From IMG/VR virus record IMGVR_UViG_3300036046_000003, positions 1 through 64,000 of that record: a DNA stretch of 64,000 nt. The stretch is one strand, 5' to 3'. Origin of the DNA: a virus. A program made the translations under genes and the position numbers. The first letter of the stretch is position 1. Every line of letters starts with the position of its first letter. Below the pieces are notes generated by a model. That model was given only the letters and a program-made list of their open reading frames with translations, ran no database searches and was not told where the DNA came from. This document shows positions 3,209-63,022 of the stretch, in pieces.

Positions 3209-6103
3209 ATGCCCGTCACAAGCTACTATAACGAAACAGAGAGCGCTAAAGCAGCGGTTTCGGAGATAGTGCAGCTGTTGGCATCGGGACAGGTGGAGCT
3301 TTCTGTAGGTTTTGACCTCGAAACCAGCCCAATTGCGGGTTTGACGGACTACCCCTCCAACCGTTTTGACGAGGCGGGCGAGCGGGTTACACCAAACAAG
3401 CGAGATTACCTTGGGTACACGCAGGCCCTTTGGCGTTCCGCCTTTAACGGGGAGGCACTGGCTCGGATAGGGCTGTTTGTGCCGCGCAAGTTGACAAGCG
3501 GGAACGAAACAAAGGGCGTTCCGGTGCGGCTGGCCTGGGAATTGTTTCTTTCGAGACTAAACGAACTGGAAGCGACCGGAAACCTGATTAACCTTCTGGA
3601 TAGTTGTCGTTGGACGGAGGCGGAGCTTTTGCGCCAAACGCGGGTCTGTGCGGGCCAGTTGAAAGCGGCACAGGCGCAAATAGCGCAGACGGAAGCGGCG
3701 ATTGCGGCGCGCCCGTTGAAGGGGTTGCGCAAGCTAGAGCGCGCGCTGAAAGCGGATCAAGCGGAACTGGCGGAGCACAAGCAACAGCTATCTTGGCTGG
3801 CGCAAGCGGCAGTGGCTCCGCAGGTAGACACTCGTTTACTGGTTCACATCGCCCGTTGTGGTGCTGAGCCAAAGCGAATTAAGATAGACCCGATAAAACC
3901 AGGACTTGACCCGTATACCGCTGATATTTTCCTTCTTCAAATGACGCTGGTGCGAAAAGGCGCGTACACCGGCTGTACCAACCCCACCGAGTACGGCAAT
4001 CGACTTCGTCAATTGCTGGCGGAGGATAGCGACACGATCCAGACGTGGCTATTTAACGTACAGAAGATAGATAAAGAGGCACTTCGCCCGCTTCTACGTC
4101 TGCCGGGGGCGCGTTATTTGGGGGCAAACATTAAGTTTGACCTGAAACATACGCTTCATTATTGGAGTGAGGCTCCAAAGAACGTATTTTGTACGAGGGT
4201 CGCCAATCGAATGCTGTTCCTGGGCTTGCGGAACGTTTCACACTCACTGGCCGCCACAACCGAGCGCCACCTGGGGTTAAAACTTTCTAAGGAGGAGCGG
4301 AACCTATTCGTTGGTCGGCGCTATGAGGAGCCTACAGAGGATATGCTTCGTTACGCGGCACGCGACACTGAGGTTCTGTTGGCGCTGGCGGGGGCGCAGG
4401 AAGCGATTGCCGCCACCCGAGGTCAGGTTGACCTGCTGGATACGTTCAGTCGGTTGTCGTACCCGACCGCGATTAGCGAGCTGGTGGGTTTTCGGCTGGA
4501 TACTGCCAAATGGCTTTCCAATACGGCGTTTGCCGTACAAGAGCGCGATCAAGCCGCTGCACAGCTAGAGCAGATGCTACTTCCTGTGGGCTATGCGGAT
4601 TTATTGGGCGGGACAGCGGTTAACCAACCAACGGAAGACGGCGAAGAAGACGAGGGAGACCCGCGCCCAAGCGCACTCATTCGGATCAGCCAGGGCGCGT
4701 TGGTGTTGGAACGTCTGGTAGACGTTTTGGGGAGGCCCGTATTTCAACAAACGTTTGAAGCTAACCGCGAAAAGCCGTCCCTGGATAAAGACGCCCGTGA
4801 GCTGCTAGAGACAAACTATATCAAGCTCTACGGAAAGTCTCACCCATTTTTTAGCCTTTACACGCGCTGGGTAAAAATGGCGAAGGCCGTAAGTACCTAC
4901 GGCGTATCATTCCTGCACAACGTACACCCTTTAACGGGGCGTATTCACGCGAGCCTGCACATAGCGGGAACCGACACGGGACGTTTTTCATCGACTGAGC
5001 CGAACGCGCTAAACATTCCACGCGGCGAAGACGGAATTGACTTTCGTGGCGCTTTTTTGGCTCCCGAAGGCTATTTGTTTGGCGGCGCTGATTACGCCTC
5101 TATGGAACAACGCATTGCGGCAGCCCTTACCGGCGACCCGGTGTTGACGGCTCTTTTTGAGGCGAACGGCGACAGTCATAGCGTTTCCGCTGCGATGATG
5201 TATCACGTTCGACGGGGCGCGGTGTCAGCCCCCGTAGGGTCGGTCGAAGACTGGCGGGAAGGCTCGCTTACCGATAGTATTCCGAAGGTGCTTCTACCCG
5301 CGAGCTGGACGCCGCTGCAAGTGGTGGAGTGGCTAGTAAAAGAACGCTGTTTTGAGATTATTGGAAAGGACGGGCAAGTAAAGGCGGTCTCTCTAATGGA
5401 ATTGATTGAGGCCAAACACAAGAAAACTACCCGGCAAAGTGCGAAAACCGTAGGGCTGGGGAAGCAGTTCGGTATGTCGAAGTTTGGCATTGCCCGTAAA
5501 AAGAATATCCCGTTGGCGCAGGCTGAGGAAATAGAAAACCTGTACGACGGAACCTACGCGGTAATGAAGGCAGGTCAGGACGCGGCGGCCAGGAAACCGT
5601 TTGAGAACTACACCGAAACGGAAGACGGTGAGCGTTTCGGGTACGGCGAGGCGTATAACAATCTACGCCGTTGGTTTCTTTTGCCGCACAATCCTAGCCG
5701 CAGGGAGTATCAGCCGGGTTCGGCGGGCGATACTCAGTTTCAGGCGGCGCAGCGGGAATATAAAAAGCGTTGCGGGGCTATTGAGCGGGAAGCTAAGAAC
5801 GTAGGTACGCAGGGCGGAAACGCGGTGATTACGGCAGAGGCTACTTTGCTACTCCTGCAAATGGGAGGCGCACATAGGCCCGCGTACCGAGAGGATACCC
5901 CCGAGGGTCGCCTTCGCCTGGGTATTTTTCCGTTCCTTTCGATCTATGACGAATTGTTGTGTTTGGTGCCGACCGGGGTAAGCGAAAAAGACGCGAACGC
6001 GGTAATTACCGGAGCGATGCTAGAGCCGTCTGAAAAGTATATCGTTGGGGTTCCGAGCAAGGCGGAAGGCAACCCACTTGACCCTTGCTGGGTGAAACAC
6101 TAA
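3209..6103 (+). CDS. polA: Family A DNA polymerase with proofreading domain
   Basis: The protein has 964 residues. It copies phage DNA. The 3'-5' exonuclease motifs are intact: FDLET (D36, E38), NIKFD (about 307-311) and YAARD (D385). Polymerase motif A is DYASMEQR (D628), motif B runs from R742 (R...K...GLGK.FG) and motif C is YDEL (D914). The position matching E. coli F762 is Leu; published surveys link Leu here to temperate phages. Two insertions are unusual: about 200 residues between exonuclease motifs I and II, including a coiled coil at about 125-200, and about 60 extra residues between motifs A and B. There is no 5'-3' nuclease domain. Confidence 0.97.
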   Translation: MPVTSYYNETESAKAAVSEIVQLLASGQVELSVGFDLETSPIAGLTDYPSNRFDEAGERVTPNKRDYLGYTQALWRSAFNGEALARIGLFVPRKLTSGNETKGVPVRLAWELFLSRLNELEATGNLINLLDSCRWTEAELLRQTRVCAGQLKAAQAQIAQTEAAIAARPLKGLRKLERALKADQAELAEHKQQLSWLAQAAVAPQVDTRLLVHIARCGAEPKRIKIDPIKPGLDPYTADIFLLQMTLVRKGAYTGCTNPTEYGNRLRQLLAEDSDTIQTWLFNVQKIDKEALRPLLRLPGARYLGANIKFDLKHTLHYWSEAPKNVFCTRVANRMLFLGLRNVSHSLAATTERHLGLKLSKEERNLFVGRRYEEPTEDMLRYAARDTEVLLALAGAQEAIAATRGQVDLLDTFSRLSYPTAISELVGFRLDTAKWLSNTAFAVQERDQAAAQLEQMLLPVGYADLLGGTAVNQPTEDGEEDEGDPRPSALIRISQGALVLERLVDVLGRPVFQQTFEANREKPSLDKDARELLETNYIKLYGKSHPFFSLYTRWVKMAKAVSTYGVSFLHNVHPLTGRIHASLHIAGTDTGRFSSTEPNALNIPRGEDGIDFRGAFLAPEGYLFGGADYASMEQRIAAALTGDPVLTALFEANGDSHSVSAAMMYHVRRGAVSAPVGSVEDWREGSLTDSIPKVLLPASWTPLQVVEWLVKERCFEIIGKDGQVKAVSLMELIEAKHKKTTRQSAKTVGLGKQFGMSKFGIARKKNIPLAQAEEIENLYDGTYAVMKAGQDAAARKPFENYTETEDGERFGYGEAYNNLRRWFLLPHNPSRREYQPGSAGDTQFQAAQREYKKRCGAIEREAKNVGTQGGNAVITAEATLLLLQMGGAHRPAYREDTPEGRLRLGIFPFLSIYDELLCLVPTGVSEKDANAVITGAMLEPSEKYIVGVPSKAEGNPLDPCWVKH

Positions 6104-7994: not shown

Positions 7995-8030
7995 ATCCGC
8001 CTTGCCTACCTGGGCGAGGCGGATTTTCTT
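7995..8030 (+). terminator. Intrinsic terminator
   Basis: ATCCGCCTTGCC pairs with GGCGAGGCGGAT (one small internal loop), then TTTTCTTG. It ends the replication gene cluster just before the recombinase start. Confidence 0.85.
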
Positions 8031-8043
8031 GTTTGGAGCTTGT

Positions 8044-9675
8044 ATGTATTTAGGAACAGCCGGACAGGCGGTAGTAGCGGCTACGTACAGCCGTGTTTCG
8101 ACAAACAAACAACTGGACGGGATTTCGCTTGCAGACCAAGAGATTACGATCCTGGCTTACGCGGAACGGAACGAAATCACCGTTCCCGAGGGATACCGTT
8201 TCCGCGAGGCAGTTAGTGGTTTGAAGGACGAGCGCGAAGAGTACGAAAAAATTCGACAGCTTATTCGACAACGCAAGATAAACGCGCTGTTGGTATACGC
8301 TTCCGACCGACACACCCGCGACCCTATTCACGGAAAGATTTTTCGGGCGGAACTGCGCAATTCCCGCTGTACGCTGCACATCGTTAGTGAGGGCGGCGAG
8401 GTAGACATATACACTGCGCAGGGCGAACTAATGGCGACGATTAAAGACGCCTTTAATCGTTACTGGCTAGATAAGATCCTAGAGACAACGTATCATAAAA
8501 AGCAGGCGTACTTGCGCCAAGGCGTTCCGTTCTTGCAGGGCGTTCCGCGTTACGGGTATGTGCGCCAGGGGAAGCGGGGCGCGGCGATTGCGGCGATAGA
8601 CGAGGAAGTACGGCCTGTTATACAGCGCATTTACGATCTAGCAGACGCAGGATTTAGTGGGCACGCCATAGCAAGGCAATTGAGTGACGCGCCAACCCCA
8701 CAGCAGCGCCGGTCGAAAACGTCCCGCAAAGGCAAATGGGGACTTACCGCCGTAATGAGTATTCTACGGGACGAGATTTATGCGGGAGTATTTTACGGAA
8801 ACCGCACAAGTACCGTTACCGTTGACGGTAAGCGTATCCGTAGTTGGAGACCCAAAGAGGAGTGGATACGGGTAGAAGTACCCGCAATTATTTCAAGGGA
8901 ACAGTGGGAGCGCGTCCAACAAAAACTAGACGCGGCTAATTCGGACAAGCCAAAATGGCACGCGAAGCACGAGTATCTGCTGGGTCGGCGCGTTCGCTGT
9001 GGGCGATGCGGGCGGCGAATGACTTCCTATCCAGGTAGACACGACGGAAAAGGACGGCTGTACTACCGCTGCGTCAACGCGGCCAACCCACGGGTCGCCG
9101 TAACCGCTTGTGACCTTACCACGGTCTTTCGTGCTGATCTCGTAGACGCGGCGGTTTGGGAGCGTCTATGCGGCTTTGTACGCCAACCGGAGGCGTTTCT
9201 TATCCGGTTGGAGGACGCACAAGAGGGCCGCCGCGAGAGTACGGAGCGGGCGCAAGCTCAGCTAGACGAAACGGCGGCCCTCCTGGCCGAAAACGAGACA
9301 CAGGTTGCCACTCTCGTACGTGAACTCGCTAAGTATGCGGGTAGGTTGCCGGTGGTGGCCGCCGCTATCGAACAACAACTAGAGCAGCTAGGAGCTACCG
9401 AAGCCGCCTTAGCAGATCGTAAACGCCAGCTAGAGGCTCGCCTCAAACAGAAAGCGGCAGCCGAAATTGAACTAACGTCACTGGCGGACGTAGCGGCGCG
9501 CATTGCACCCCTGCTAGACCGCGCTGACTTTCAAACAAAACGAACCGCTGTAGAGCTTTTACAGTGGCAATTTGAACTGGACGTGGTGGAAGGGCGGCGC
9601 TCTGTCGCGGTGCTCTGGTTCGACGTTCGTAGCGAGTTTTTTGTGGAGCACGCAAAAAAGCCAAAACAGCCGTAG
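8044..9675 (+). CDS. Large serine recombinase (integrase family)
   Basis: The protein has 543 residues; ATG 8044 is chosen because GGAG precedes it. The resolvase domain carries SRVST, whose second Ser (S19) is the catalytic nucleophile, and the DRHTRD block. A recombinase domain follows, then a zinc ribbon CGRCGRR with later RC and AC cysteines, then a coiled coil (about 400-480). This is the phiC31-type architecture used for integration into attB or for excision. It lies between a terminator and a leader hairpin, apart from the tyrosine integrase at 60.2 kb. Two integrases in one genome is unusual; one may serve as an invertase or be a relic. Confidence 0.92.
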   Translation: MYLGTAGQAVVAATYSRVSTNKQLDGISLADQEITILAYAERNEITVPEGYRFREAVSGLKDEREEYEKIRQLIRQRKINALLVYASDRHTRDPIHGKIFRAELRNSRCTLHIVSEGGEVDIYTAQGELMATIKDAFNRYWLDKILETTYHKKQAYLRQGVPFLQGVPRYGYVRQGKRGAAIAAIDEEVRPVIQRIYDLADAGFSGHAIARQLSDAPTPQQRRSKTSRKGKWGLTAVMSILRDEIYAGVFYGNRTSTVTVDGKRIRSWRPKEEWIRVEVPAIISREQWERVQQKLDAANSDKPKWHAKHEYLLGRRVRCGRCGRRMTSYPGRHDGKGRLYYRCVNAANPRVAVTACDLTTVFRADLVDAAVWERLCGFVRQPEAFLIRLEDAQEGRRESTERAQAQLDETAALLAENETQVATLVRELAKYAGRLPVVAAAIEQQLEQLGATEAALADRKRQLEARLKQKAAAEIELTSLADVAARIAPLLDRADFQTKRTAVELLQWQFELDVVEGRRSVAVLWFDVRSEFFVEHAKKPKQP

Positions 9676-21151: not shown

Positions 21152-22037
21152 CCCGGTTATTGTAGTGGCCCCCCCGGCAACCGTTTTAGCTGTGTCCGGG
21201 CCAACAGGAGCACAAGGCCCTGCGGGGCCTGCTGGGGCCGTAGGGCCTGCCGGGGCTGTAGGGCCTGCTGGTGCCGTAGGGCCAACAGGAGCACAAGGCC
21301 CACAGGGAGAACCCGGCCCTGCGGGGCCTGCTGGGGCCGTAGGGCCAACAGGAGCACAAGGCCCACAGGGAGAACCCGGCCCTGCGGGGCCTGCTGGGGC
21401 TGTGGGGCCACAGGGAGAACCCGGCCCTGCGGGGCCTGCTGGGGCTGTGGGGCCACAGGGAGAACCCGGCCCTGCGGGGCCTGCCGGTCAAACAGTAGCT
21501 GCGGGTCGGGCGCGGGTGTCAGGAGAAAACGCGCACTTAGGTTTGCCCGGTATTTTGTTTACTGGCGTAGGGACGGTCACGCTGGCCGCCAACCGGCTTT
21601 TGTACGCCCCGCTTGTGTTGCAGCATTCGCTGACCATAGACCTGCTTAGCGTAGAGGTTACTACAGCCGGGGCTGCGGGGGCGCTCATTCGTCTAGGTTT
21701 GTACCAGGCGGATATAGACAACCAACCAACAGACCTTGTGCTGGACGCGGGGGAAGTGGACGGCGCAAGTGTCGGCGTAAAGACGATCAGCGTAAACATC
21801 TCTCTTTCTGTGGGGCGCTATTTATTGGTGCTTAACACCAACGCAACCCCTACGTTGCGCACTTTTCGTTCTGGTTCGCCCTTTGTGAATAGCGTGCTTG
21901 GCGCGACCCCGTTTTTCTCGGCGCTACGTAGGTCGGGCACCACCTACGCGGTTTTTCCAGCTACCGGGGTCGGCTGGAACAACACGAGCGCGAGTAGCGT
22001 AGGTTTTGAACACTATATTCTTTTGCGGAGCCAATAA
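21144..22037 (+). CDS. Collagen-like virion protein
   Basis: The protein has 297 residues. About residues 18-115 are Gly-X-Y triplets ([19 protein letters not shown] pattern), built of DNA repeats that are near-identical at base level. The C-terminal about 180 residues form a globular beta domain, likely a trimeric head. Such proteins make fibres on phage virions. Repeat number should vary easily by slippage. Its stop overlaps the next start (TAATG). Confidence 0.88.
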
Positions 22038-24660: not shown

Positions 24661-24920
24661 GAACCTCACTGCGCGACACGCCCCTTCGCAAGTGCGAAGT
24701 AGAAGTACCCTACTCAGGTATACCCTTCTGGTTCTATCGCCGCTCCTGGGGCTTCCCAGGCCCCTTGTGGGGTCGCCTCGCCGGAACCCTTTACTTCCCG
24801 AAGTGGGCGTTGGAGGGAAAGAAGGTTCGGAATAAAGGGAACTGTACTAGCCTACACAACCCGAAGGGTCAGAGCGTGTCTTTGTGTTCTTCGGGCTTGT
24901 GTTGGGTAAACGAGGAGGGT

Positions 24921-24936
24921 TGTGAAAAGTATCACA
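24921..24936. promoter_or_regulatory. TGTGA-N6-TCACA palindrome in R2
   Basis: TGTGAAAAGTATCACA, extended to GGGTTGTGA/TCACAACCC. It matches the CRP-type half-site pattern, but followed by TATATATTTT it could equally be a terminator hairpin. Confidence 0.45.
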
Positions 24937-25305
24937 ACCCTATATATTTTCCGAGTTTCCCGCTTTGGGCCGCACAGGCCGACACTAGGCAGGGTAGGGG
25001 CAACACGTACAACTACGCGGGGCGCTAGCCGCGCCCCTGCACCCCCAGGCCCGTCTCGCTCCGCTCGACGGAAACGCTAACGCGTTTTCTAGAGGAGACA
25101 TACTCCTACAACCCCACCTCCCTAAAGGCCCTCTTAGTATACCAGTTAAAAACAAGTTAGTGGGACAAAAAGAGGGGTGAAAGAGGGCAGTTTGGGGTAC
25201 TTGTTTCGGTTTTGCCGCGTTCCAAAGCCAAACACACATTACAAAACTGTAATCGATTTTCTCATAAATCTCTTGACAAGGTTTTGGCGGAACGGGGCAA
25301 CGTTC

Positions 25306-25318
25306 TGCATTTACTGCA
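25306..25318. promoter_or_regulatory. Operator palindrome, site 5
   Basis: TGCATTTACTGCA closes repeat R2, 22 bp before the tail chaperone start. Confidence 0.7.
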
Positions 25319-25340
25319 CATCTCTTGAAAGGAGACAGTG

Positions 25341-31646: not shown

Positions 31647-31680
31647 GGGCCGTTTTCTTTTGAGAACGGCCCTTCTCCTA
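31647..31680 (+). terminator. Hairpin after the tape measure
   Basis: GGGCCGTT (31647-31654) pairs with AACGGCCC (31665-31672), then TTCTCC. The T-tract is weak. Confidence 0.55.
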
Positions 31681-31798
31681 GAATGACCTACAAGGGGGCT
31701 GGGAAGCTCCAGGAGCGACGATAGAACCAAAAGGGTACTCTGAGTAGGGTACGTCTACTTCGCAACTGCGGAAAGACGCGCCGCTTCTTCCAGAGTTC

Positions 31799-31811
31799 TG
31801 CATTAACTGCA
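31799..31811. promoter_or_regulatory. Operator palindrome, site 6
   Basis: TGCATTAACTGCA, 6 bp before a TGTGA-N6-TCACA palindrome inside repeat R3. Confidence 0.7.
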
Positions 31812-31817
31812 CAAGGC

Positions 31818-31833
31818 TGTGAAAAGTTTCACA
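31818..31833. promoter_or_regulatory. TGTGA-N6-TCACA palindromes in R3
   Basis: TGTGAAAAGTTTCACA; a second copy, TGTGAAAAGTATCACA, lies at 31976-31991. Both match a CRP/FNR-type binding pattern or short RNA hairpins. Confidence 0.45.
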
Positions 31834-32346
31834 ATCCAAATAGTTGAACAGAGAGGATCTTTAGGAGAGAGTTCTCGGAAGAGCGGGAGCTGGAATAGCC
31901 TACACAAGCCCGATAGGGCGAGTGGGGATCTTGTCCTCTTGTTCTTCGGGCTTGTGTTGGGTAAACGAGGAGGGTTGTGAAAAGTATCACAACCCTATAT
32001 ATTTTCCGAGTTTCCCGCTTTGGGCCGCACAGGCCGACACTAGGCAGGGTAGGGGCAACACGTACAACTACGCGGGGCGCTAGCCGCGCCCCTGCACCCC
32101 CAGGCCCGTCTCGCTCCGCTCGACGGAAACGCTAACGCGTTTTCTAGAGGAGACATACTCCTACAACCCCACCTCCCTAAAGGCCCTCTTAGTATACCAG
32201 TTAAAAACAAGTTAGTGGGACAAAAAGAGGGGTGAAAGAGGGCAGTTTGGGGTACTTGTTTCGGTTTTACCGCGTTCCAAAGCCAAACACACATTACAAA
32301 ACTGTAATCGATTTTCTCATAAATCTCTTGACAAGGCGAGGAGCCA

Positions 32347-35421: not shown

Positions 35422-35453
35422 GGCCCACTCCGTTCGGGGTGGGCTTTTTCTTT
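35422..35453 (+). terminator. Intrinsic terminator before the tail fibre
   Basis: GCCCACTCC pairs with GGGGTGGGC around GTTC, followed by TTTTTCTTT. The fibre start is at 35463. Confidence 0.85.
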
Positions 35454-35462
35454 GGAATACTT

Positions 35463-38072
35463 ATGAGTTCTATTTCGCAGCTAGACCTTGTACTTTTAGG
35501 CCGACGAGGACTAACGGCTCGCCTGGGTGGGGTTGAACGCGCCATTCGTGACCTTTCGTTGGGCGTCGCACAAGAGGCAGTAGGCGCGGTTACGGGGGTG
35601 CGCCCTAATCTCCTTTCAAACGGCTCCTTCGAGTTCTACAATCGAGGCGAAACGAAACCAAACGAGTGGGCCGCGAGTGGTACGGTGTCTGTAGCGTCGG
35701 GGACGCTGGGCGCTGACGGTAGCGTGGTAGTGTTGCTTTCAGCGGGGGCCTCTATTAGTCAGTCTGTAGACGGGGGTCAACCGCAGAACGTTGGCGCGGG
35801 TACGCTGTCCCTGGCGGTTCGGGCCACCGCACCTGCGACAATTACGTTGGCGGTTAACCACAGCGCCGCCACAAGCGGGCCAATCATTCGGTTGGGGCTT
35901 GACGGGGTAGAGGTCGAAACAAACGAACATCCGGGCGACGGTACTTGGTATCGTTTCTTTCGGCAGTATCTCTTAACCGCCGCTGGTGCGGCTTCTGTGT
36001 CGGTGGGCTGCTCTGCCGGTTCTGTTGAAGCTGATGCCGTTAAATATGAGCGAGAAGACGGTACGGGTACGTTTATCGAACCCACGGCGTTTGTGGGAGG
36101 CGATTGGGGGGCTGCCGTCCAGCTACGCACCCTCAAAGCTGAGAATATTATTTCAGGCCAACTCACGGTTGGCGGGGCGGACAGTAACAACCCACGAATT
36201 AGCGTCCTTAACGGGGACAACGCCGAGATTGTGACGATAGGAGACCCTGCAAGTGGGTTTCTTGGTATTGAGGTTAAGGACGCGGGGGGTATGCGGGTGA
36301 GTGGCAGCGGAGACGTGGCCGTTGTCGGCGGGGGGCGTATTTACGCGGGTATGCCCGCCGGGGGGCGGACTGAGCTGGCCGCCGCCGGGTTGGCGGGCTA
36401 CAACGCGGCGAACGAGAAACAGGCGGAGCTGCAAAGCGCTACTGGTAAACTGCGCATTCTTGGGGTCGGCGGTCTGTCGGTAGAGAATGGGGCGTCCGTC
36501 GAAATTAAAGGCGGCGGCCATTTGCTTGTGGGTACGCCCGACGCGCAGCGTACCGAGGTTCGTAATTACGGGGTTGTTGGATACAACAACGACAACGAAG
36601 TTATTTTTGCGCTGAATGAGGCCGGTGTCGTCAATGGGGTCAACGTAGACGACGGCGATGTATTGATCGGCAACGCAGGCAACAATTACGCGCTTTGGGA
36701 TAATTCTGCGGGCGAGCTTACTATTGTCGGAACAGTAATCGCGGGCGAAGGTAACGTCGAAATAGGTACGGCGGGTGTTACCTTGCTGAGTAGCGGCGTT
36801 AACTACAACGCACGAAACGCCGTGACCTGGGTAACTGACCTTTCCGAACCAAATACGGACTTTCCCGTAGCTGTGGTTTTTGGTGGAAGGCAAGAGGTTA
36901 GCCAGACAAATCCACGGGTACGCAAAATTCTTGACCTGTACAGCGGGTCAATAAACGACGTGTTCTTCTCCCGCCCCGCCGGTAGCCCACAGGAAGACGG
37001 AAAGCTTACCTGTATCGCCATTGGCACAAAAGACGGCGGACAAGCCAGTGCGTTTTACGGCGCGTTTGCTGGTACTGCCGCAGAAATGATATTCCATTCA
37101 GTTGCGCGGCGTATTGAAATTGGCGGATCGGGCCTTTGTCGGAAAAACTCGACAAACACAAACCCGGCTTTTTTGCAGTGGGAAGCCGGGTTCGTAGAGT
37201 TGGGCGGAGAGGGCCATTCGGCGGGGGTGCGTACCCGTGGAACCCTCGACGTAAGAAAGCTGAACGCTGCGGGTGGTAGTAACGTTCAACTCGAAGGGCG
37301 CACCGCTCTCACCGACATAAACGACGGCTTTTTGCGGGTCAATCACGGCGAGCAGTACAGTGAAGGTGTTGCGGTGTCGGGCCGCTTACGCGCATTCGGC
37401 TGGCTCAGTGTCGGCAATGACGCGCTCAACTTCACACCCACCGGGTCTACCTGGGCTACAGGTGGGGCTACCTTACTCCTGAACGGCCTGGATACTACCT
37501 CGATTGTTTTCCACGACGCCAATAACCGCGTAGACGCGATTGTGGCGGGCGGGGGACTTCTGCGTATTGGGCCGGACATTGGCTTTGGCCCTGCGAATGT
37601 GGAGTTCTCAGGAACTACGGCATTCGGACGCGCCCCTGTTTCAAACGTCCGGGCGGTTATGTTTGCGACAACGAATGACAGTAACGGACATAGCCTGTTT
37701 TGCGCGAACAACGGCTGGACGCAAAACCACTTGTATATTCGCGGAGACGGCTTGCCCTGGGTCAATCAAGCCTGGGTTGTCGGTTCCGACGAACGCCTGA
37801 AAGAAGACATAGCCGACGTACCAAACGCCCTAGACCGTCTTCAAGGCGTTCGGCCCCGCTCCTACTACCTTCGAGCCGACGAGGCCCGTCAACGAAGGCG
37901 TCATTACGGCGTAGTCGCTCAGGAGTTGGTAGAGGTACTACCTGAACTGGTGTCAGAAGGGCAGGACGGCACACTGGCGGTGGCGTATGAAGAGCTGATC
38001 CCCCTGCTTGTGGGGGCCGTAAAAGAGTTGTCAGCGCGGGTTACAGCCCTTGAAGCGCGCCTGCGCTCGTAA
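35463..38072 (+). CDS. Tail fibre with S74 intramolecular chaperone
   Basis: The protein has 869 residues. ATG 35463 is preferred over the upstream frame start inside the terminator. The long shaft is built of repeated beta segments (VGGGRIYAG, VEIKGGGHLLVG). The C-terminus is a peptidase S74 domain: VGSDERLKEDI, then RHYGVVAQEL and a final coiled coil. S74 domains guide trimer folding and cut themselves off at the Ser of GSD. About 55 residues before it are shared almost exactly with the second fibre at 61487-63022. Confidence 0.9.
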   Translation: MSSISQLDLVLLGRRGLTARLGGVERAIRDLSLGVAQEAVGAVTGVRPNLLSNGSFEFYNRGETKPNEWAASGTVSVASGTLGADGSVVVLLSAGASISQSVDGGQPQNVGAGTLSLAVRATAPATITLAVNHSAATSGPIIRLGLDGVEVETNEHPGDGTWYRFFRQYLLTAAGAASVSVGCSAGSVEADAVKYEREDGTGTFIEPTAFVGGDWGAAVQLRTLKAENIISGQLTVGGADSNNPRISVLNGDNAEIVTIGDPASGFLGIEVKDAGGMRVSGSGDVAVVGGGRIYAGMPAGGRTELAAAGLAGYNAANEKQAELQSATGKLRILGVGGLSVENGASVEIKGGGHLLVGTPDAQRTEVRNYGVVGYNNDNEVIFALNEAGVVNGVNVDDGDVLIGNAGNNYALWDNSAGELTIVGTVIAGEGNVEIGTAGVTLLSSGVNYNARNAVTWVTDLSEPNTDFPVAVVFGGRQEVSQTNPRVRKILDLYSGSINDVFFSRPAGSPQEDGKLTCIAIGTKDGGQASAFYGAFAGTAAEMIFHSVARRIEIGGSGLCRKNSTNTNPAFLQWEAGFVELGGEGHSAGVRTRGTLDVRKLNAAGGSNVQLEGRTALTDINDGFLRVNHGEQYSEGVAVSGRLRAFGWLSVGNDALNFTPTGSTWATGGATLLLNGLDTTSIVFHDANNRVDAIVAGGGLLRIGPDIGFGPANVEFSGTTAFGRAPVSNVRAVMFATTNDSNGHSLFCANNGWTQNHLYIRGDGLPWVNQAWVVGSDERLKEDIADVPNALDRLQGVRPRSYYLRADEARQRRRHYGVVAQELVEVLPELVSEGQDGTLAVAYEELIPLLVGAVKELSARVTALEARLRS

Positions 38073-52993: not shown

Positions 52994-53010
52994 CTAGTAC
53001 GCCGCACTCG

Positions 53011-53023
53011 TGCAGTAAATGCA
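53011..53023. promoter_or_regulatory. Operator palindrome, site 11
   Basis: TGCAGTAAATGCA at the operon-proximal edge of repeat R4; the equivalent position in R2 holds site 5. Confidence 0.72.
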
Positions 53024-53392
53024 GAACTTTTCTCCGTTCCGCCAAAACCTTGTCAAGAGATTTATGAGAAAATAGATTACAGTTTTGTAATGTGTATTTG
53101 GCTTTGGAACGCGGTAAAACCGAAATAGGTACCCCGAACTACCTGCTTCTACCCCTCTTTTTGTCCCATTAACTTGTTTTTAACTGGTATACTAAGAGGG
53201 CCTTTAGGGAGGTGGGGTTGTAGGAGTGCGTCTCCTCTAGAAAACGCGTTAGCGTTTCCGTCGAGCGGAGCGAGACGGGCCTGGGGGTGCAGGGGCGCGG
53301 CTAGCGCCCCGCGTAGTTGTACGTGTTGCCCCTACCCTGCCTAGTGTCGGCCTGTGCGGCCCAAAGCGGGAACTTCGGAAAATATATAGGGT

Positions 53393-53408
53393 TGTGAAAA
53401 GTATCACA
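53393..53408. promoter_or_regulatory. TGTGA-N6-TCACA palindromes in R4
   Basis: TGTGAAAAGTATCACA here and TGTGAAACTTTTCACA at 53547-53562, the counterparts of the two copies in R3. The second differs in the centre but keeps both half-sites. Confidence 0.45.
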
Positions 53409-53568
53409 ACCCTCCTCGTGTACCCAACACAAGCCCGAAGAACACAAAGACCGCTCTAACCCTACGGGTTGTGTAGGCTATTCCAGTTCCCTCTTCTTCC
53501 TATAGCTCTCTCTCTTAAAGAACCTTCTCTGTTCAAGTATATGGATTGTGAAACTTTTCACAGCCTTG

Positions 53569-53581
53569 TGCAGTTAATGCA
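53569..53581. promoter_or_regulatory. Operator palindrome, site 12
   Basis: TGCAGTTAATGCA, the R4 counterpart of site 6 in R3. Confidence 0.7.
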
Positions 53582-53744
53582 GAACTCGGGAAGAAGCGGC
53601 GCAGTTTTTCGCAGTTGCGAAGTAGAAGTACCCTACTCAGGTATACCCTTCTGGTTCTATCGTCGCACCTGGAGCTTCCCAGGCCCCTTGTAGGTCATTC
53701 TAGGAGAGAGCGGCGACAGAGAGTAAACGCACGAGGAGGGGCAC

Positions 53745-56460: not shown

Positions 56461-58281
56461 TTATTCCTGACTTTTGTGTTGCTGCGCGGTTTCCACAACA
56501 ATTTTTACCGCCTCAAACTCGTATCGAAGCCGCTGGTACGCACGTCCGCCGGTAACGCCTGTAGTCTTTTTTAGCGCCGTTGCTACCTCATTTCCGTTTG
56601 TTTTGTAGACCTGCAAAGTTTTGACTAGTACCTTCCGGTTTTCCGCAGATAGCCTTCGAAACACCAAAAGCGCCTCCTTAAAGCTAGTTGGTACAAACTG
56701 ACCTTCCCCCCTGAAAGGGCCGGAAGGCGCATTGTTACGCCTTGGAAGGTCATCGGAAGAGGAAGGCGACCCAGCTACCGCCAAGTTACCCACAGGTCTA
56801 CCTTCCGCCTTGCCTTCCGTGTTATTTACCGACCCTTCCAACAGTTCCGCCAGAAGGCATAGGCTATCCTCCGAAACCTCCCTGTTTGGCGCTTCGTTCG
56901 CTTGTACCCCCGCGAAGCCTGGATACGCAGGTGCCGCTATACTTTTCCGTGGAAGTCCCTCTACAATTTCGTCAAATCGGTCTTCGTTTGCTTCGGGGTC
57001 GCCGCGAAATATCGGCGTTCGCAGCAGCGTAAACTCCCCGCGAACTTTTGCCACAAAAACCCCCCGCTCCTGTGGCGGCGGTGGAATTTTGCTCGGTCGA
57101 AACGGCAGTGCGGTAGTGTCGCGTACTCCTAATGCTGGGCCGTCCTGAGAGCCGTCCACTAGCGCCCCAGCAAGCACCGTAGAGAGGTTCATTCGCCAAT
57201 CCAGACCCTTTCCTGTTGGCGTTTGCATAGATACCAACACCCGGATACCCAACGACCTCGCTTTGCTGACCAGGGCCGCCAAAAGCGCTTCCACTTCCCC
57301 TGTTATCGCGTCCATTACGTCCGTGACCACCACCACAAGCAGCGGCAGCTCAGCGACCCCGCCTTGCGCCGCCCGTTTGTTGTACTGTTCTCGCGTTCGG
57401 CAGCCCGCCGAAACAAGCAACTCCTGGCGGCGCTCGGCCTCGGCGTCAATGACCTTGCAAGCCATTAGAATAGCTTCGCGGCCCTTTTTACCGTAGCCCC
57501 CCGCAGGCGGAAAGAACATATGAGACAGCCCCGACAGGGCGGGCACTAACCAATCTGATTTACCGTCCAGGAACGCAAACTGTAGCGTTTCCGGCCCGTT
57601 TCGGCTCGCCAAAAGCGCGAACCAACAGCGCAAGAGTGCGTCTTTTCCCGCCCCGCTCGTACCGTAAATACCTATATGAAGCAAATCCAGGGCAAGATCG
57701 CCCCACACCTGCTTTCCGAGATAATCTGTGCCCAACGGCACTGCGGTTGTGCTGGCAGGAAACGGCTGAAACTCACCCAAAAGCACGCGCTTTGGAAGTG
57801 CGTTTAGTGCAGAAGCCATTGACGCCGAGGGGCTTTGCAAGCCAGCAGGACGGCTTGCCGCGCCTTTTAGACCGTCGTCATCTTCCCGGCCACGCCCCTT
57901 CGACCTCTCCGGGGGCACAGCCGAGGTTTGAGCCGTTGCTACGGCTTGCGAAGTCGTAGCGCTGGGCGGCGTTTTTGCCGCTAGTTCTTTTCGAGCGGGG
58001 GCGGACAAGCGCGCCGGTGTAGTCTCTACCAGCCGCACCAATCCCGGCCAGGAACCTTGCGCGTACGTATTCCGGGCCACCTGACGTGGGTCAATGGCTA
58101 AGGCTTTGCAAACGGCGGCGGCGACGGAGGGCGAACGGCGAAGAAAGTATTGACCGAGCGGCAGCAGGAAAAGAGGAGCTGCCCCAGCGGCTCCCCCTGC
58201 CACACCGATAGCCGCAAGCAAAATATCGGTCGCGTCGAATGGAGGTGGGTTTTTTGGCTTGTTCTCTATCGAAGTTTCCAT
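56461..58281 (-). CDS. FtsK/TraB-like DNA translocase
   Basis: The protein has 606 residues. A hydrophobic segment (about 18-47) is followed by a disordered linker, then the motor with Walker A GTSGAGKD (207-214) and Walker B VVVVTD (D321), and SMQTPTGKG as a sensor-like loop. A Ser/Pro linker leads to a C-terminal helical domain (about 525-600) in the place of FtsK gamma or TraB DNA-recognition domains. It probably moves double-stranded DNA at a membrane. The gene lies directly beside the palindrome array at 58407-58881, a likely recognition site. Confidence 0.85.
   Translation of the reverse strand: METSIENKPKNPPPFDATDILLAAIGVAGGAAGAAPLFLLPLGQYFLRRSPSVAAAVCKALAIDPRQVARNTYAQGSWPGLVRLVETTPARLSAPARKELAAKTPPSATTSQAVATAQTSAVPPERSKGRGREDDDGLKGAASRPAGLQSPSASMASALNALPKRVLLGEFQPFPASTTAVPLGTDYLGKQVWGDLALDLLHIGIYGTSGAGKDALLRCWFALLASRNGPETLQFAFLDGKSDWLVPALSGLSHMFFPPAGGYGKKGREAILMACKVIDAEAERRQELLVSAGCRTREQYNKRAAQGGVAELPLLVVVVTDVMDAITGEVEALLAALVSKARSLGIRVLVSMQTPTGKGLDWRMNLSTVLAGALVDGSQDGPALGVRDTTALPFRPSKIPPPPQERGVFVAKVRGEFTLLRTPIFRGDPEANEDRFDEIVEGLPRKSIAAPAYPGFAGVQANEAPNREVSEDSLCLLAELLEGSVNNTEGKAEGRPVGNLAVAGSPSSSDDLPRRNNAPSGPFRGEGQFVPTSFKEALLVFRRLSAENRKVLVKTLQVYKTNGNEVATALKKTTGVTGGRAYQRLRYEFEAVKIVVETAQQHKSQE
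57799..57811. promoter_or_regulatory. Operator-like palindrome, site 13 (within the FtsK-like gene)
   Basis: TGCGTTTAGTGCA, identical to site 7. It is inside the coding sequence, 470 bp from the start, where a bound protein could block elongation. Confidence 0.45.
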
Positions 58282-58309: not shown

Positions 58310-58330
58310 AAGTCACTCTAGTGGCTTGCG
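58310..58330. repeat. Degenerate palindrome copy at the translocase leader
   Basis: AAGTCACTCTAGTGGCTT differs by one base from the array palindrome and is flanked by GC on both sides. It lies between the promoter at 58351 and the translocase start at 58281, as an operator would. Confidence 0.7.
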
Positions 58331-58350
58331 CGCCTCGTCTTGGTGGGTGC

Positions 58351-58379
58351 ATTGTATCCTTTCGCGCCGCAGCTGTCTA
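58351..58379 (-). promoter_or_regulatory. Translocase promoter TAGACA-17-TACAAT
   Basis: Minus strand -35 at 58374-58379 and -10 at 58351-58356. It lies between the array and the degenerate palindrome. Confidence 0.7.
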
Positions 58380-58406
58380 CTATATCTCCGCAACCCGTCG
58401 CGTTTT

Positions 58407-58887
58407 AAGCCACTCTAGTGGCTTGCAAGCCGTTTTACCCCGGTAGTGCGCTCAAATCGGGGTTTAAGCCACTCTAGTGGCTTGCAAGGTCGCTTGCAGC
58501 CGTCGATTTTCACCGCCACCAGGCCCCAAAACGGGCTTTTCGTGCGTTTCCCTGGTGGTAGGCCCACAAAGAACGCCTCTCGGGGGCTGTCCCAAGAGGC
58601 GTTTTAAGCCACTCTAGTGGCTTGCAAGCCGTTTTACCCCGGTAGTGCGCTCAAATCGGGGTTTAAGCCACTCTAGTGGCTTGCAAGGTCGCTTGCAGCC
58701 GTCGATTTTCACCGCCACCAGGCCCCAAAACGGGCTTTTCGTGCGTTTCCCTGGTGGTAGGCCCACAAAGAACGCCTCTCGGGGGCTGTCCCAAGAGGCG
58801 TTTTAAGCCACTCTAGTGGCTTGCAAGCCGTTTTACCCCGGTAGTGCGCTCAAATCGGGGTTTAAGCCACTCTAGTGGCTTGCAAGG
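58407..58887. repeat. Perfect 199-bp tandem repeats with six palindromes
   Basis: Two full 199-bp units (58407-58605, 58606-58804) and a partial third (58805-58887). Every unit has two copies of AAGCCACTCTAGTGGCTT 59 bp apart: starts at 58407, 58466, 58606, 58665, 58805 and 58864. Between them lie hairpins ACCCC/GGGGT, CCACCAGG/CCTGGTGG and CGCCTCT/AGAGGCG. The units look identical base for base. The stretch is gene-free, flanked by the translocase and a membrane protein gene. Candidate centromere, transfer site or origin. Confidence 0.95.
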
Positions 58888-58891
58888 ACTC

Positions 58892-59587
58892 TTAGGCCCG
58901 CCCGGCGGTGCGTGCGTCGCCTCGCCCGGTTTCTGGCGCGCCTTTCATTGCGTTCAGAATAAGCACAATACCGGCGGCAAGAAACAAAATAAAGGCCATT
59001 TCCATAACCAGGGACGCGATTAACGTCATTACGAGCTTGGCGGCAATACCAAGACCGCCAGCAAACGGCCCCGCCCACAAGAGCGCGCCCCGGTCAATGT
59101 ACGTCTGGACGAAGAGCGCCGAACGCTCTAAGTCGGTGATAAAATCAAACACGATAAAGGCGTACACGAGCCATTCAATAAAGGTAATCCCCGCCCGCGC
59201 CAACCGCGCCCCGAACAATTCCAACAGCGTTGGAAACAACGAAACGAGGGTGCCCACCATAACGGCCCACTGTGGCGAAACCAAACCGTAGCTGCTTTCC
59301 ACCGCCCGGCGGGCTTCGGCCAGCCAATCGTAGGTACTCTCCAAGTCAAAGTAGTAGGCAAGGCCACCACAGATACTAGCGATAGCGAGAAACGCGATAC
59401 CGCTAATCATCGCCGAACGCCCTGTAGTACCGCGTACCGCCTTGAACGCTCGTTCAAGATTTTCGCTCAGGTCAAGCCAGCCGAGAAAGTCCCCGTTTCT
59501 GCCAAAAGCCGCATAGAGCAAACCCGCAATCGCCAAAAAAACAAGCCAATCGAAGGGGCCGTAACCGTTAAAAGGATTGTACAGCAC
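58892..59587 (-). CDS. Multi-pass membrane protein beside the repeat array
   Basis: The protein has 231 residues; GTG 59587 follows GAGGAG. About five hydrophobic helices: WLVFLAIAGLLYAAF, ISGIAFLAIASICGGLAYYF, VMVGTLVSLFPTLLEL, FIEWLVYAFIVFDF and LVMTLIASLVMEMAFILFLAAGIVLIL. Not recognised. Its placement directly across the array from the FtsK/TraB-like gene suggests a membrane partner of the translocase. Confidence 0.65.
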   Translation of the reverse strand: MLYNPFNGYGPFDWLVFLAIAGLLYAAFGRNGDFLGWLDLSENLERAFKAVRGTTGRSAMISGIAFLAIASICGGLAYYFDLESTYDWLAEARRAVESSYGLVSPQWAVMVGTLVSLFPTLLELFGARLARAGITFIEWLVYAFIVFDFITDLERSALFVQTYIDRGALLWAGPFAGGLGIAAKLVMTLIASLVMEMAFILFLAAGIVLILNAMKGAPETGRGDARTAGRA

Positions 59588-59672: not shown

Positions 59673-60188
59673 TTACTTTTGTAGGTCTGCCTTCGCCAAC
59701 TGAACGATAGCGAGCATAAGCGCCACCACCTTGCGGCGCTCGCCAATCGGAATATCGTCCAGTTCTCGGGCTACTGGACTAAAATCCCCGGCGCTAGGTA
59801 GCTTGTAATTGCGTATGTCAACCTCATCAAACCACCCATCAGCTAAGCCAAACTCTAGTGGATTACAGCCAATAACCTCCGCAATCCTGCGGAACGTTTG
59901 CGGTTTTGCTTTAGAGCGGCCACTAAGAATGGCCGACAAAAAGCCCCGCGAAAGCGGTTCCTCCACCACGGTCGCGGCTTCCCCCTCTACCCGGGTATCA
60001 ACAGGCCGCTTTGCCCTGGCGGCCACGTCCGATACGTTCAACCCCAGCGTTCTGTCGGCGTATAAGAGCCAATAGCCCAGGCAGAGGGTTAAGTCCTCTA
60101 GCCGATGTTCGTGAAGGTACGCGAACAGCGCGTCGGTATTGCGCCCATAGGTCGCCTCTGCGGCGCGATATTTACTTTCTACTGCCAC
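59673..60188 (-). CDS. Cro/C1-type regulator, phage repressor candidate
   Basis: The protein has 171 residues with a GTG start. LSRGFLSAILSGRSKAKPQTF followed by IAEVIGCNPLEF is an XRE-type helix-turn-helix. The Tyr/Leu-rich N-terminus and helical C-terminus may dimerise. Beside the integrase, it is the first candidate for the lysogeny repressor and for the protein that binds the TGCA palindromes. No LexA-like cleavage motif is visible. Confidence 0.7.
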   Translation of the reverse strand: MAVESKYRAAEATYGRNTDALFAYLHEHRLEDLTLCLGYWLLYADRTLGLNVSDVAARAKRPVDTRVEGEAATVVEEPLSRGFLSAILSGRSKAKPQTFRRIAEVIGCNPLEFGLADGWFDEVDIRNYKLPSAGDFSPVARELDDIPIGERRKVVALMLAIVQLAKADLQK

Positions 60189-60201: not shown

Positions 60202-61086
60202 CTACACCGGAACAGAAACCGCAGCGGGTCGCGTCGCCGGTTTCTCGCCGCGCCGCCGCAAATACAAACCCTCTAACCGCGCCGTTGCCTGCGCCGTATA
60301 GCGCTGCGTCGTCTCACAACGCTTATGCCCTGCTATACGCCGTACCGCGTCAATATCCCCCCCGTTGGGGTCGTCCAGCAACTCGGTAAGCAGTTGGTGG
60401 CGGAACAAATGAGGGTGAACGTCCGGGCGACCTACAACCGCGCCCAGCTCTGTAACAAGCTGCCGTACCCGTTGGTCGCTCAACTCAAACAAGCGCCCCG
60501 TTTTCGGAAAGCCGCGCAGCGCAAGATAATGCCGAAGCGCCCCGGCTGTCTGGTGATCGAAATAGACTAGTCGCTCGTCTCCGCCTTTCCCCATTACCGT
60601 CGCCTTGCCCGCTTCGTCCGCGTGGCGGGGAAACTGCACGTTTTCGATACACAAACCCACGACTTCGCTTACGCGCCCGCCTGTGGCCCGCAACACCAGC
60701 AAAAGTGCCAGGTTACGCGCCCCCGCTACCGTAGTGGTGTCGCAAGCACAGCACATTCCCTCAAACTCTTCCGGCGAAAGCAACTGCGGAAGTACCAGCG
60801 GTACTTTAACCCCGCGAACGGCAAGCGCCGCCAATACGTCGCCGCTTAGTAGCTCCTCCGCCACCGCCCAGGTCAAAAACGCACGTGCTGCCGACAGTCG
60901 CCGGTTCACCGTCGCCGGTGCGTAACCCTGCTGTAGTGCTTGCCGGTACGCGGCTAGTTGCTTTGGTCGCAACTCCTCTACGCTGTATCCGTTATCGGAT
61001 AACCACTGAGAGAAGGCGCGGAGGTCAGCGGCGTAGGCGCGGCGGGTCTGCGGGGACTGTAGGGTATCGAGAAACCGGGGGAGCAT
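60202..61086 (-). CDS. int: Tyrosine recombinase (integrase)
   Basis: The protein has 294 residues. The catalytic set is complete: R138 (GGRVSE), H226 and R229 (HLFR), H254 (GHK) and Y263 (RYTA). The N-terminal SAM-like core-binding domain is present. It lacks an arm-binding extension, so it is XerC/D-sized. Promoter TTGCGC-17-TATACT and an operator palindrome lie just upstream, so it is likely under phage repressor control. Second integrase of the genome after the serine enzyme at 8044. Confidence 0.93.
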   Translation of the reverse strand: MLPRFLDTLQSPQTRRAYAADLRAFSQWLSDNGYSVEELRPKQLAAYRQALQQGYAPATVNRRLSAARAFLTWAVAEELLSGDVLAALAVRGVKVPLVLPQLLSPEEFEGMCCACDTTTVAGARNLALLLVLRATGGRVSEVVGLCIENVQFPRHADEAGKATVMGKGGDERLVYFDHQTAGALRHYLALRGFPKTGRLFELSDQRVRQLVTELGAVVGRPDVHPHLFRHQLLTELLDDPNGGDIDAVRRIAGHKRCETTQRYTAQATARLEGLYLRRRGEKPATRPAAVSVPV

Positions 61087-61377: not shown

Positions 61378-61486
61378 TCGAACGGGTCGGAATTGAACCT
61401 ATTGCTAGTCGTTATCTCCGTAGACCGCCGAGGGGCTATTCCCTCTTGTGGGCAACCTAATGCGGGTTGCGTATACGGAGGGACGA
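61378..61486. other. Gene-free stretch with a tRNA T-arm-like segment
   Basis: On the minus strand AATAGGTTCAATTCCGACC (about 61385-61403) looks like a tRNA T arm, but only three of five stem pairs form and no acceptor partner or D arm is found. A hairpin GAGGG/CCCTC lies at about 61431-61446. It could be an attachment-site relic near the integrase; I see nothing firmer. Confidence 0.25.
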
Positions 61487-63022
61487 ATGCCAGACGAGAC
61501 AGTCAACGGGAACCTTACGGTGACGGGGACGGTGTACGCCGATAACTTTAGAACAGCGGCGTCTGGTTTGCTTTCTATCGAAAAAGATAACGCTAAACTA
61601 AACCTGTCACGCAGCTCTAATGTTACAACGGCAAGCCTTAGTGTGGCTACTTCGGGCAGTATCGCGCTTGTCGCGGATAATGGAGAGACTATTGCTTCGT
61701 ATCGTGCTTTGGCACACCGCTTCTATTTGGGCGGCTCTGCGCAACCCTTTTTCATCGCGGATAACAACCGACTAGAGTATGTCACCTCCTATTACGACAA
61801 GTATAGCGTTACCGGCGATAATGAAGCCGGTCAGATTGAAGTAAACGCCGTAACAAGCGGAGGGGCAGAGGCGGTACTCCAATCATACGCTGCGCGCCAC
61901 GATTTTTTTGTTTTAGGCAACCACCGGGCTGCCTTTACCTCCGGATTAGAGCTTTATGGCGGGCAGGGAGCGGCCAGTGTCTCGGCGCGTAGTAATTCGG
62001 GTGGGGCCGCAATCCCGCTGGTGCTAAACGGCAGTGACGTTGCTGTTACTGCCCCTTTTAGTGCCCCGTCCGTGTTGGTTTTCGGCCAGGTCAGCGCTGG
62101 TAATCTAAGTACGGTTGGTTCGATTGCTGCGCCGGGTGTGCTTATCCAGAACCAAAATATCCAGGCAAACGGTTGGCTGGCCTCTCAGTCTTTGTCGGCA
62201 GACCAGCGGATTGAACTGCGATCTATTGACGGCGGTGGCGTTCGCGTTCGCGCCAGTAACTTTGCAAACAACGCGCTCCGTCCGCTAGACCTGGAAGCTA
62301 GTGTAGTGAGAACGCCAGGGTGGGTCTCTGTCGGAAGTGGCACACAGAACTATACGCCAACTGGCTCCACCTGGGCTACCGGCGGCGCTACCTTGCTGCT
62401 GAATGGCCTGGATACGACTTCGATTGCTTTTCACGACGCCAATAACCGCGTGGACGCAATTGTAGCGGGCGGCGGTCTGATGCGCGTTGGGCCGGATACC
62501 GGCTTTGGCCCTGCGAACGTTCAAACCTACGGCTTTACCGGCGCGGGCGGCGTTCCTCTTGCGAACCAGCGTATGCGCGTCTATTCTAGCGGCGATAACA
62601 GCGGTCACTTCCCTCTCGCCGTTGTGAATAGCGCAGGCAGCGCGGCGCTGATGTACGTTCGCGGCGATGGTTACGCCTGGACGAGCCAGCCGTGGGCTGT
62701 TGGCTCCGACGAACGCCTGAAAGACAAGGTTGAGCCGCTTGACGCTACCGCGCTAGAGAAGTTGGCCCAGGTTACGTTCCACCGCTACCAGCTTCGCGCA
62801 AACGGCCTCCCGCAAGTCGGGGTCATAGCGCAGGAGCTACAGCAGGTGTTCCCTGAACTGGTGAGCGAACACCACGACCCGGCCAACCCGAACGAGGCAC
62901 CGCTGCTGGCGGTCAACTATCAGGGTCTCGCGGTCTACCAGGGAGCCGCAATCCAGCAACTCGCCGCAAAGGTTGCGGGCTTGGAAGAGCGTCTGGCCGC
63001 ACTCGAAAAGCGCTTTGCCTAG
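61487..63022 (+). CDS. Second tail fibre with S74 chaperone
   Basis: The protein has 511 residues; ATG 61487 follows GGAGGG (an earlier GTG at 61448 has no binding site). Beta-rich shaft, then a block of about 55 residues (YTPTGSTWATGG...GFGPANV) almost identical to the main fibre at about 37430-37605, then VGSDERLKDKV, VGVIAQEL and a C-terminal coiled coil, i.e. an S74 domain. It is a lone rightward gene among leftward genes, between the integrase and a strong terminator: a moron-like or alternative receptor-binding fibre. Confidence 0.88.
   Translation: MPDETVNGNLTVTGTVYADNFRTAASGLLSIEKDNAKLNLSRSSNVTTASLSVATSGSIALVADNGETIASYRALAHRFYLGGSAQPFFIADNNRLEYVTSYYDKYSVTGDNEAGQIEVNAVTSGGAEAVLQSYAARHDFFVLGNHRAAFTSGLELYGGQGAASVSARSNSGGAAIPLVLNGSDVAVTAPFSAPSVLVFGQVSAGNLSTVGSIAAPGVLIQNQNIQANGWLASQSLSADQRIELRSIDGGGVRVRASNFANNALRPLDLEASVVRTPGWVSVGSGTQNYTPTGSTWATGGATLLLNGLDTTSIAFHDANNRVDAIVAGGGLMRVGPDTGFGPANVQTYGFTGAGGVPLANQRMRVYSSGDNSGHFPLAVVNSAGSAALMYVRGDGYAWTSQPWAVGSDERLKDKVEPLDATALEKLAQVTFHRYQLRANGLPQVGVIAQELQQVFPELVSEHHDPANPNEAPLLAVNYQGLAVYQGAAIQQLAAKVAGLEERLAALEKRFA

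Follow-up and report, generated by a model that had tools for sequence, protein, structure and literature searches.

The window analysed here, a stretch of 64,000 nucleotides (positions 1 to 64,000 of the virus record IMGVR_UViG_3300036046_000003), contains an array of identical palindromes, AAGCCACTCTAGTGGCTT, between the gene of a multi-pass membrane protein and the gene of an FtsK/SpoIIIE-family ATPase. Our leading explanation, held tentatively and at somewhat less than even confidence, is that the palindromes are locus-specific operator-type or maintenance sites for a dimeric helix-turn-helix (HTH) protein, most likely the one encoded at 59673-60188. As judged from the related loci compared, the array is neither a conserved partner of the translocase nor an essential part of the membrane/FtsK pair. 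It can be placed among known arrays of the operator or centromere type, as a variant of them, and no earlier description of it was found.

The sequence-only reading had reported six exact copies of the palindrome, a degenerate seventh and perfect 199-bp tandem units, and all three were confirmed. Successive exact copies start 59, 140, 59, 140 and 59 bp apart, and the degenerate copy lies 97 bp ahead of the first of them. TRF gave a period of 199 bp, 2.5 copies and 100% matches. The array is better written as A-B-A-B-A: each A (90 bp) contains a pair of palindromes, and each 109-bp spacer B carries two different inverted repeats. The features of the locus, with their strands, are as follows.

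56461..58281, minus: FtsK/SpoIIIE-family ATPase, 606 aa; PF01580 at 37.8 bits, above the curated cut-off of 24, with the motor domain; Walker A GTSGAGKD; C-terminal helical, HTH-like segment
58310..58327, plus: degenerate palindrome AAGTCACTCTAGTGGCTT, one mismatch, between the putative FtsK promoter and the start codon
58351..58379, minus: promoter-like site TAGACA-17-TACAAT, reading into the FtsK-like gene, 10/12 consensus positions
58408-58379, minus: second promoter-like site TTAAAA-18-TATAGT
58400..58887, no strand assigned: tandem array, 2.5 x 199 bp, A-B-A-B-A, units 100% identical
58407..58424, plus: palindrome 1, exact, abutting the second promoter-like site
58466..58483, plus: palindrome 2, exact
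58490..58688, no strand assigned: full 199-bp unit, with palindromes and the inverted repeats CCACCAGG/CCTGGTGG and AACGCCTCT/AGAGGCGTT
58606..58623, plus: palindrome 3, exact
58665..58682, plus: palindrome 4, exact
58805..58822, plus: palindrome 5, exact
58864..58881, plus: palindrome 6, exact
58892..59587, minus: multi-pass membrane protein, 231 aa, upstream partner of the FtsK-like gene
59673..60188, minus: HTH protein, 171 aa, candidate palindrome binder; Pfam HTH_3 at E = 0.0013, below its cut-off
60202..61086, minus: XerC/XerD-like tyrosine recombinase, PF00589

In each palindrome two 8-bp arms enclose a 2-bp centre (CT), and the orientation is the same for all seven. In the degenerate copy, outer GCAAG/CTTGC lengthen the arms and one pair inside is mismatched. 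When both strands were scanned with up to three mismatches allowed, 15 matches were obtained, against a mean of 0.02 in shuffled sequences. Fourteen of them represent the seven palindromes, which are confined to 58310-58881; the remaining one is a three-mismatch match within the FtsK coding sequence. Exact AAGCCACTCTAGTGGCTT was found only at the array in a search of the whole 72,427-bp record. Avoidance of CTAG was rejected as a reason for the palindrome, CTAG not being rare in this genome (210 occurrences vs. 222 expected). GC skew, inspected for an origin or terminus, showed no clear switch at the array and followed gene direction. The contig ends overlap by 127 bp, and identical ends of that length are present here and in contig G001, which suggests an assembly word of 127, below the 199-bp unit. 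A second contig of the same phage, L008, contains one unit plus 90 bp of the array and breaks off precisely at its border. Because the likely assembly word is shorter than the unit and L008 breaks at this border, the 2.5 copies are a property of the assembly and the number of units is uncertain.

The minus-strand cluster runs in the order recombinase, HTH protein, membrane protein, array and FtsK-like ATPase, with a terminator-like hairpin at 59660-59641 after the HTH gene. The FtsK/SpoIIIE gene and the multi-pass membrane protein gene on either side of the array were as first described. The membrane protein belonged to no family in the libraries searched, and homologues of the HTH protein were not found outside the same phage. 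Two promoter-like sites were called in the array region where 0.5 would be expected, and TAGACA-17-TACAAT was the best. The sequence-only reading had placed a palindrome at the promoter of the translocase and suggested autoregulation. The placement held, with the 58310 copy just downstream of this site and upstream of the FtsK start, and the translocase as reader of the array was not supported. Control of the FtsK-like gene by this palindrome is likely, because the degenerate copy lies between the best promoter-like site and the FtsK start codon.

The FtsK-like protein itself has an unusual Walker A motif, with GKD instead of GK[S/T] in the family alignment. Its C-terminal 87 residues were predicted to form four helices (pLDDT 78.7), and in a fold comparison that looked for a winged helix of the FtsK gamma type, the best match of this segment (Z 3.8, rmsd 4.1, 68 aligned residues) was at noise level, not above background. 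The full-length structure prediction was too poor for use (pLDDT 47.7). By eye, most family members have an HTH-like segment at the C-terminus. PADLOC matched the ATPase to mad8 and SspH, which probably reflects the common motor domain. Two assignments were rejected: the FtsK-like protein is not a TraB by NCBIfam NF041214 (15 bits vs. a cut-off of 800), and the recombinase is not a XerC/XerD by the curated cut-off but an Xer-like relative only (154.9 bits with the XerC model vs. a cut-off of 335).

The whole record represents a temperate tailed phage of 72.4 kb with terminase, portal, protease, capsid, tail fibre, DNA polymerase, Cas4-like nuclease, helicase and primase. It is likely circular; the 127-bp end overlap hints at a circular map but sits in a dispersed repeat (98.5% identical copy at 31830-31966). 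The phage carries two recombinases, a large serine integrase (8002-9675) and the XerC/XerD-like enzyme. Dispersed intergenic repeats of 300-660 bp, up to 98% identical, occur in the window at 24827-25319, 31674-32336 and 53010-53707 (inverted) and in the record at 71851-72427. They bear the palindromes TGTGAAAAGTATCACA and/or TGTGAAAAGTTTCACA (TGTGA-N6-TCACA, a CRP-like symmetry) and resemble a common regulatory module of this phage. Several other repeats were noted. The stretches 37398-37600 and 62318-62520 of the window are 80% identical and belong to the gene 35439-38072 and to the S74-peptidase-bearing tail-fibre gene 61448-63022. At 21225-21484, tandem repeats of the GGGCCTGCTGGGGCC type, in units of 18, 45 and 63 bp, would encode collagen-like Gly-Pro-Ala in a phage protein. 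Further along the record, two genes at 64042-66784 share long mutually similar stretches with ADL/ANL every five residues, as in pentapeptide-repeat proteins, and a tandem repeat at 71046-71234 differs by about 100 bp in length between the window's contig and the otherwise nearly identical L008.

We then examined the relatives of the locus. The array recurred only in L008, which is 99.99% identical to the window's contig, with one base different in 12.5 kb, repeat lengths aside. Single-protein searches with the FtsK-like protein found nothing in IMG/VR and GTDB contigs, and the two loci L020 and L024 were reached by alignment with Herpetosiphon plasmid proteins. The FtsK-like protein of L024, a 29.9-kb phage record, is 54% identical to ours, and that of L020, an integrated element of an Oscillochloris metagenome-assembled genome (MAG), is 46% identical. 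Both have a homologue of the membrane protein directly upstream (36% identity in L020, 30% in L024), and in both the two genes abut or nearly so, with no repeat between them. When a profile of the FtsK-like family was run against 400 sampled Chloroflexota genomes, 15 had a match at E up to 1e-30, all of them among the 82 genomes of Chloroflexales, the order to which the Oscillochloris MAG belongs. By our own count the sample held about 40 Chloroflexales, giving 15 of ~40 in this order and 0 of ~360 among other Chloroflexota. Because the family occurred only in Chloroflexales among the sampled Chloroflexota, the host of the phage likely belongs to these filamentous green non-sulfur bacteria.

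About 30 loci were compared. In most, the membrane-protein gene overlaps the ATPase gene or lies within ~30 bp of it; a few have a gap of 330-910 bp, and several, two of them at a contig end, have no recognised membrane gene. Palindromic repeats between the two genes were absent from these ~30 loci except in the same phage. Because relatives' loci have no palindromes between the genes, the array splits a normally contiguous pair and does not appear to be a conserved partner of the translocase. This bears on the main proposal of the sequence-only reading, that the palindrome is a recognition site of the translocase. Relatives retain the membrane/FtsK-like pair without such palindromes, and a search for the palindrome beside their FtsK-like genes found none, the 54% identical phage protein and the 46% identical integrated-element protein included. 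Nor was the palindrome seen in relatives apart from a translocase, an occurrence that would have spoken against the proposal from the other side; the sole further array was that of the same phage. An IMG/VR search with the centre left free returned single sites in nine unrelated contigs, which is about what chance would give by our own estimate. The 82 Chloroflexales genomes gave a single near match in 3, compared to 6 for a reversed control, and no further arrays.

Other features were observed in these loci. The conserved membrane/FtsK-like ATPase pair, mostly with Walker A GxxxxGKD, occurs on phages, plasmids and integrated elements of Chloroflexales (L020, L024, L068-L081, L117-L128, L089 and L091). 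In L071, L075, L076, L077 and L014, iterons of 10-11 bp are followed by a ~400-aa protein with a DxGNGxxK motif, a ~140-aa protein and then the pair; in some Herpetosiphon loci the iterons lie ~2.5 kb upstream, ahead of the 400-aa and 140-aa genes. This arrangement looks like parC-ParM-ParR. The iteron-associated 400-aa/140-aa locus was not recognised by Pfam, NCBIfam or PDB profile search, and the 400-aa protein is unconfirmed as ParM. L020 has seven 10-bp direct repeats (AGTGTTATTC type) at 4227-4328 and three tandem, partly palindromic 23-bp repeats with TGACARTATACCGTGA at 4392-4461, both upstream of a Cro/C1-type gene.

An operator-type cluster for a dimeric HTH protein fits these observations better than a conserved translocase loading site. 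This is because the sites are symmetric and confined to this promoter, and the array carries its own promoter and separates the usual pair. Operators of dimeric HTH proteins typically show this kind of perfect two-fold symmetry, with 8-bp arms about a 2-bp centre. The only good promoter pair has sites on either side of it, the imperfect one being nearest the gene. The position of the array between two usually contiguous genes fits an own promoter and operator for the FtsK-like gene. The model is further supported by the HTH gene within the same cluster, and by a parallel in L020, where a different Cro/C1-type HTH gene heads the pair and the three 23-bp repeats lie upstream. In the proposed mechanism, the HTH protein would bind the one-mismatch site in the 5' leader together with the perfect upstream sites and form a nucleoprotein complex across the FtsK promoter. 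Such a complex would repress or time the FtsK-like gene. The perfect upstream sites would be filled first and the gene freed only once DNA copies outnumber the protein, and the same complex might anchor the DNA for stable maintenance. Several points count against this model. The HTH_3 match of the candidate binder is weak, and the palindrome scan found no copy of the site at the promoter regions of the HTH gene and the membrane gene, whereas repressors mostly act on their own promoters as well. For simple repression, six or more upstream sites would be a large number, and the spacings of 59, 140 and 97 bp are not all whole helical turns.

The main rival, unlikely in our view but of some weight, is that the palindromes are a recognition or loading site of the FtsK-like translocase, bound through its C-terminal helical segment and combined with autoregulation, as in TraB/clt or FtsK/KOPS. 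The sites do occur only around the FtsK-like gene, the family commonly has the C-terminal HTH-like segment, and the close relative L024, which lacks this segment, also lacks a repeated palindrome. However, most relatives retain the segment yet show no palindromes by the gene, the segment's fold matches are at noise level, and a symmetric palindrome at wide spacing differs from a run of short polar repeats. In addition, no KOPS-like, strand-polar, over-represented 7- or 8-mer stood out in the genome. A bolder version would make the membrane protein, the FtsK-like motor and the array a TraB/Spd-like pump for double-stranded DNA through the septa that divide neighbouring cells of filamentous Chloroflexales, used by a temperate phage and by related plasmids and elements, with the array as loading site; we give this version very little probability. 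A centromere proper, with inverted repeats in longer tandem iterons as in F sopC, bound by the HTH protein and driven by the membrane/FtsK pair or by a host factor, appears quite improbable to us. Known centromere layouts likewise embed inverted repeats in longer tandem units and have a promoter lying between sites (PMC5016525), and several Herpetosiphon contigs place the pair after the parC-ParM-ParR-like genes and iterons. Against this, no ParA, ParB or ParM was recognised among the phage proteins searched, a profile of the Herpetosiphon 400-aa protein (which may not itself be a ParM) found nothing in 431 ORFs, and the phage has integrases, so its maintenance as a plasmid is a supposition.

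Recombination and RNA offer poorer explanations. The XerC-like recombinase, whose gene lies past the HTH gene in this cluster, could use the palindromes as core sites and be activated by the FtsK-like protein, for FtsK/Xer/dif-like multimer resolution or insertion in the phage; the site can be read as 11-6-11, the layout of a 28-bp dif site, with 8/11 arm positions common to both arms. Yet active sites in direct repeat whose centres are identical should be lost by deletion between them, whereas 2.5 identical units persist; the perfect 8+2+8 symmetry suits a dimer operator better than dif, and no recombinase was found among the proteins searched in the FtsK-bearing phage L024/G001. We consider this role highly improbable. 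There is a small chance that the array acts as RNA, its hairpins affecting the read-through that reaches the FtsK-like gene from the membrane gene, or that it is a recently amplified repeat with no function. Each unit folds far better than dinucleotide shuffles on both strands (z = -4.5 on the minus and -5.5 on the plus strand), and recent duplication would account for the identity of the units. But the folding strength follows trivially from the palindromes, a search of Rfam with the array gave no match at E up to 1, no terminator-like site was called within it, and the promoter-proximal copy, in unique sequence, still matches 17/18 bases.

Among described systems, SpdA2/sps on TraB plasmids may be the closest functional parallel to the array. 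On TraB-bearing plasmids of Streptomyces, a distinct small protein, SpdA2, binds the palindrome sps; loss of sps affects segregational stability, not transfer, and the membrane protein SpdB2 interacts with TraB (PMC4170104). That precedent speaks against the inference, made in the sequence-only reading, that a palindrome beside a translocase is read by it. Like SpdA2/sps with TraB and SpdB (pIJ101, pSVH1), the phage combines an FtsK-like ATPase, an integral membrane protein, a small HTH protein and a repeated short palindrome on one mobile element; Streptomyces and Chloroflexales also both grow as filaments. Unlike sps, which is CGTCACGTGACG in 2-3 copies, often inside spdA (PMC4170104), the palindrome here is AAGCCACTCTAGTGGCTT and does not qualify as sps. 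Here the palindromes lie on both sides of the FtsK promoter; SpdA2 has been proven to bind its site (PMC4170104), whereas the phage has a candidate binder; and the phage FtsK-like protein does not belong to TraB by sequence. TraB/clt also has an FtsK-like motor adjoining repeated DNA, but clt consists of contiguous 8-bp direct repeats (TRS), whereas the repeats here are palindromes of 18 bp at alternating distances of 59 and 140 bp. Partition loci of types Ib, II and III have their centromere repeats around the par promoter or upstream of it, and the centromere-binding protein represses this promoter (PMC5016525). The array shares the layout of F sopC and partition centromeres, with inverted repeats in longer tandem units and promoter-associated sites (PMC5016525); it differs in that no ParA/ParB pair was recognised, its units are fewer and wider-spaced, and the motor would be FtsK-like or the host's. 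Lambda-type operator clusters likewise have several symmetric 17-18-bp sites around a promoter with a Cro/C1-like gene nearby, but they have three sites at ~24 bp, compared to six perfect upstream sites at 59/140 bp here, and none of the sites here is at the promoter of the candidate regulator.

For the palindrome, its spacing and its setting, we know of no matching described site and found none. The array sits in a two-gene module, a membrane protein with a GKD-type FtsK-like ATPase, that is widespread on mobile DNA of Chloroflexales and is unnamed in the libraries searched. This conserved pair on mobile DNA of filamentous Chloroflexales is the most striking by-product of the analysis. If the array is indeed a docking site for maintenance or transfer, it would provide a first handle on how phage and plasmid DNA is kept or moved in these bacteria.
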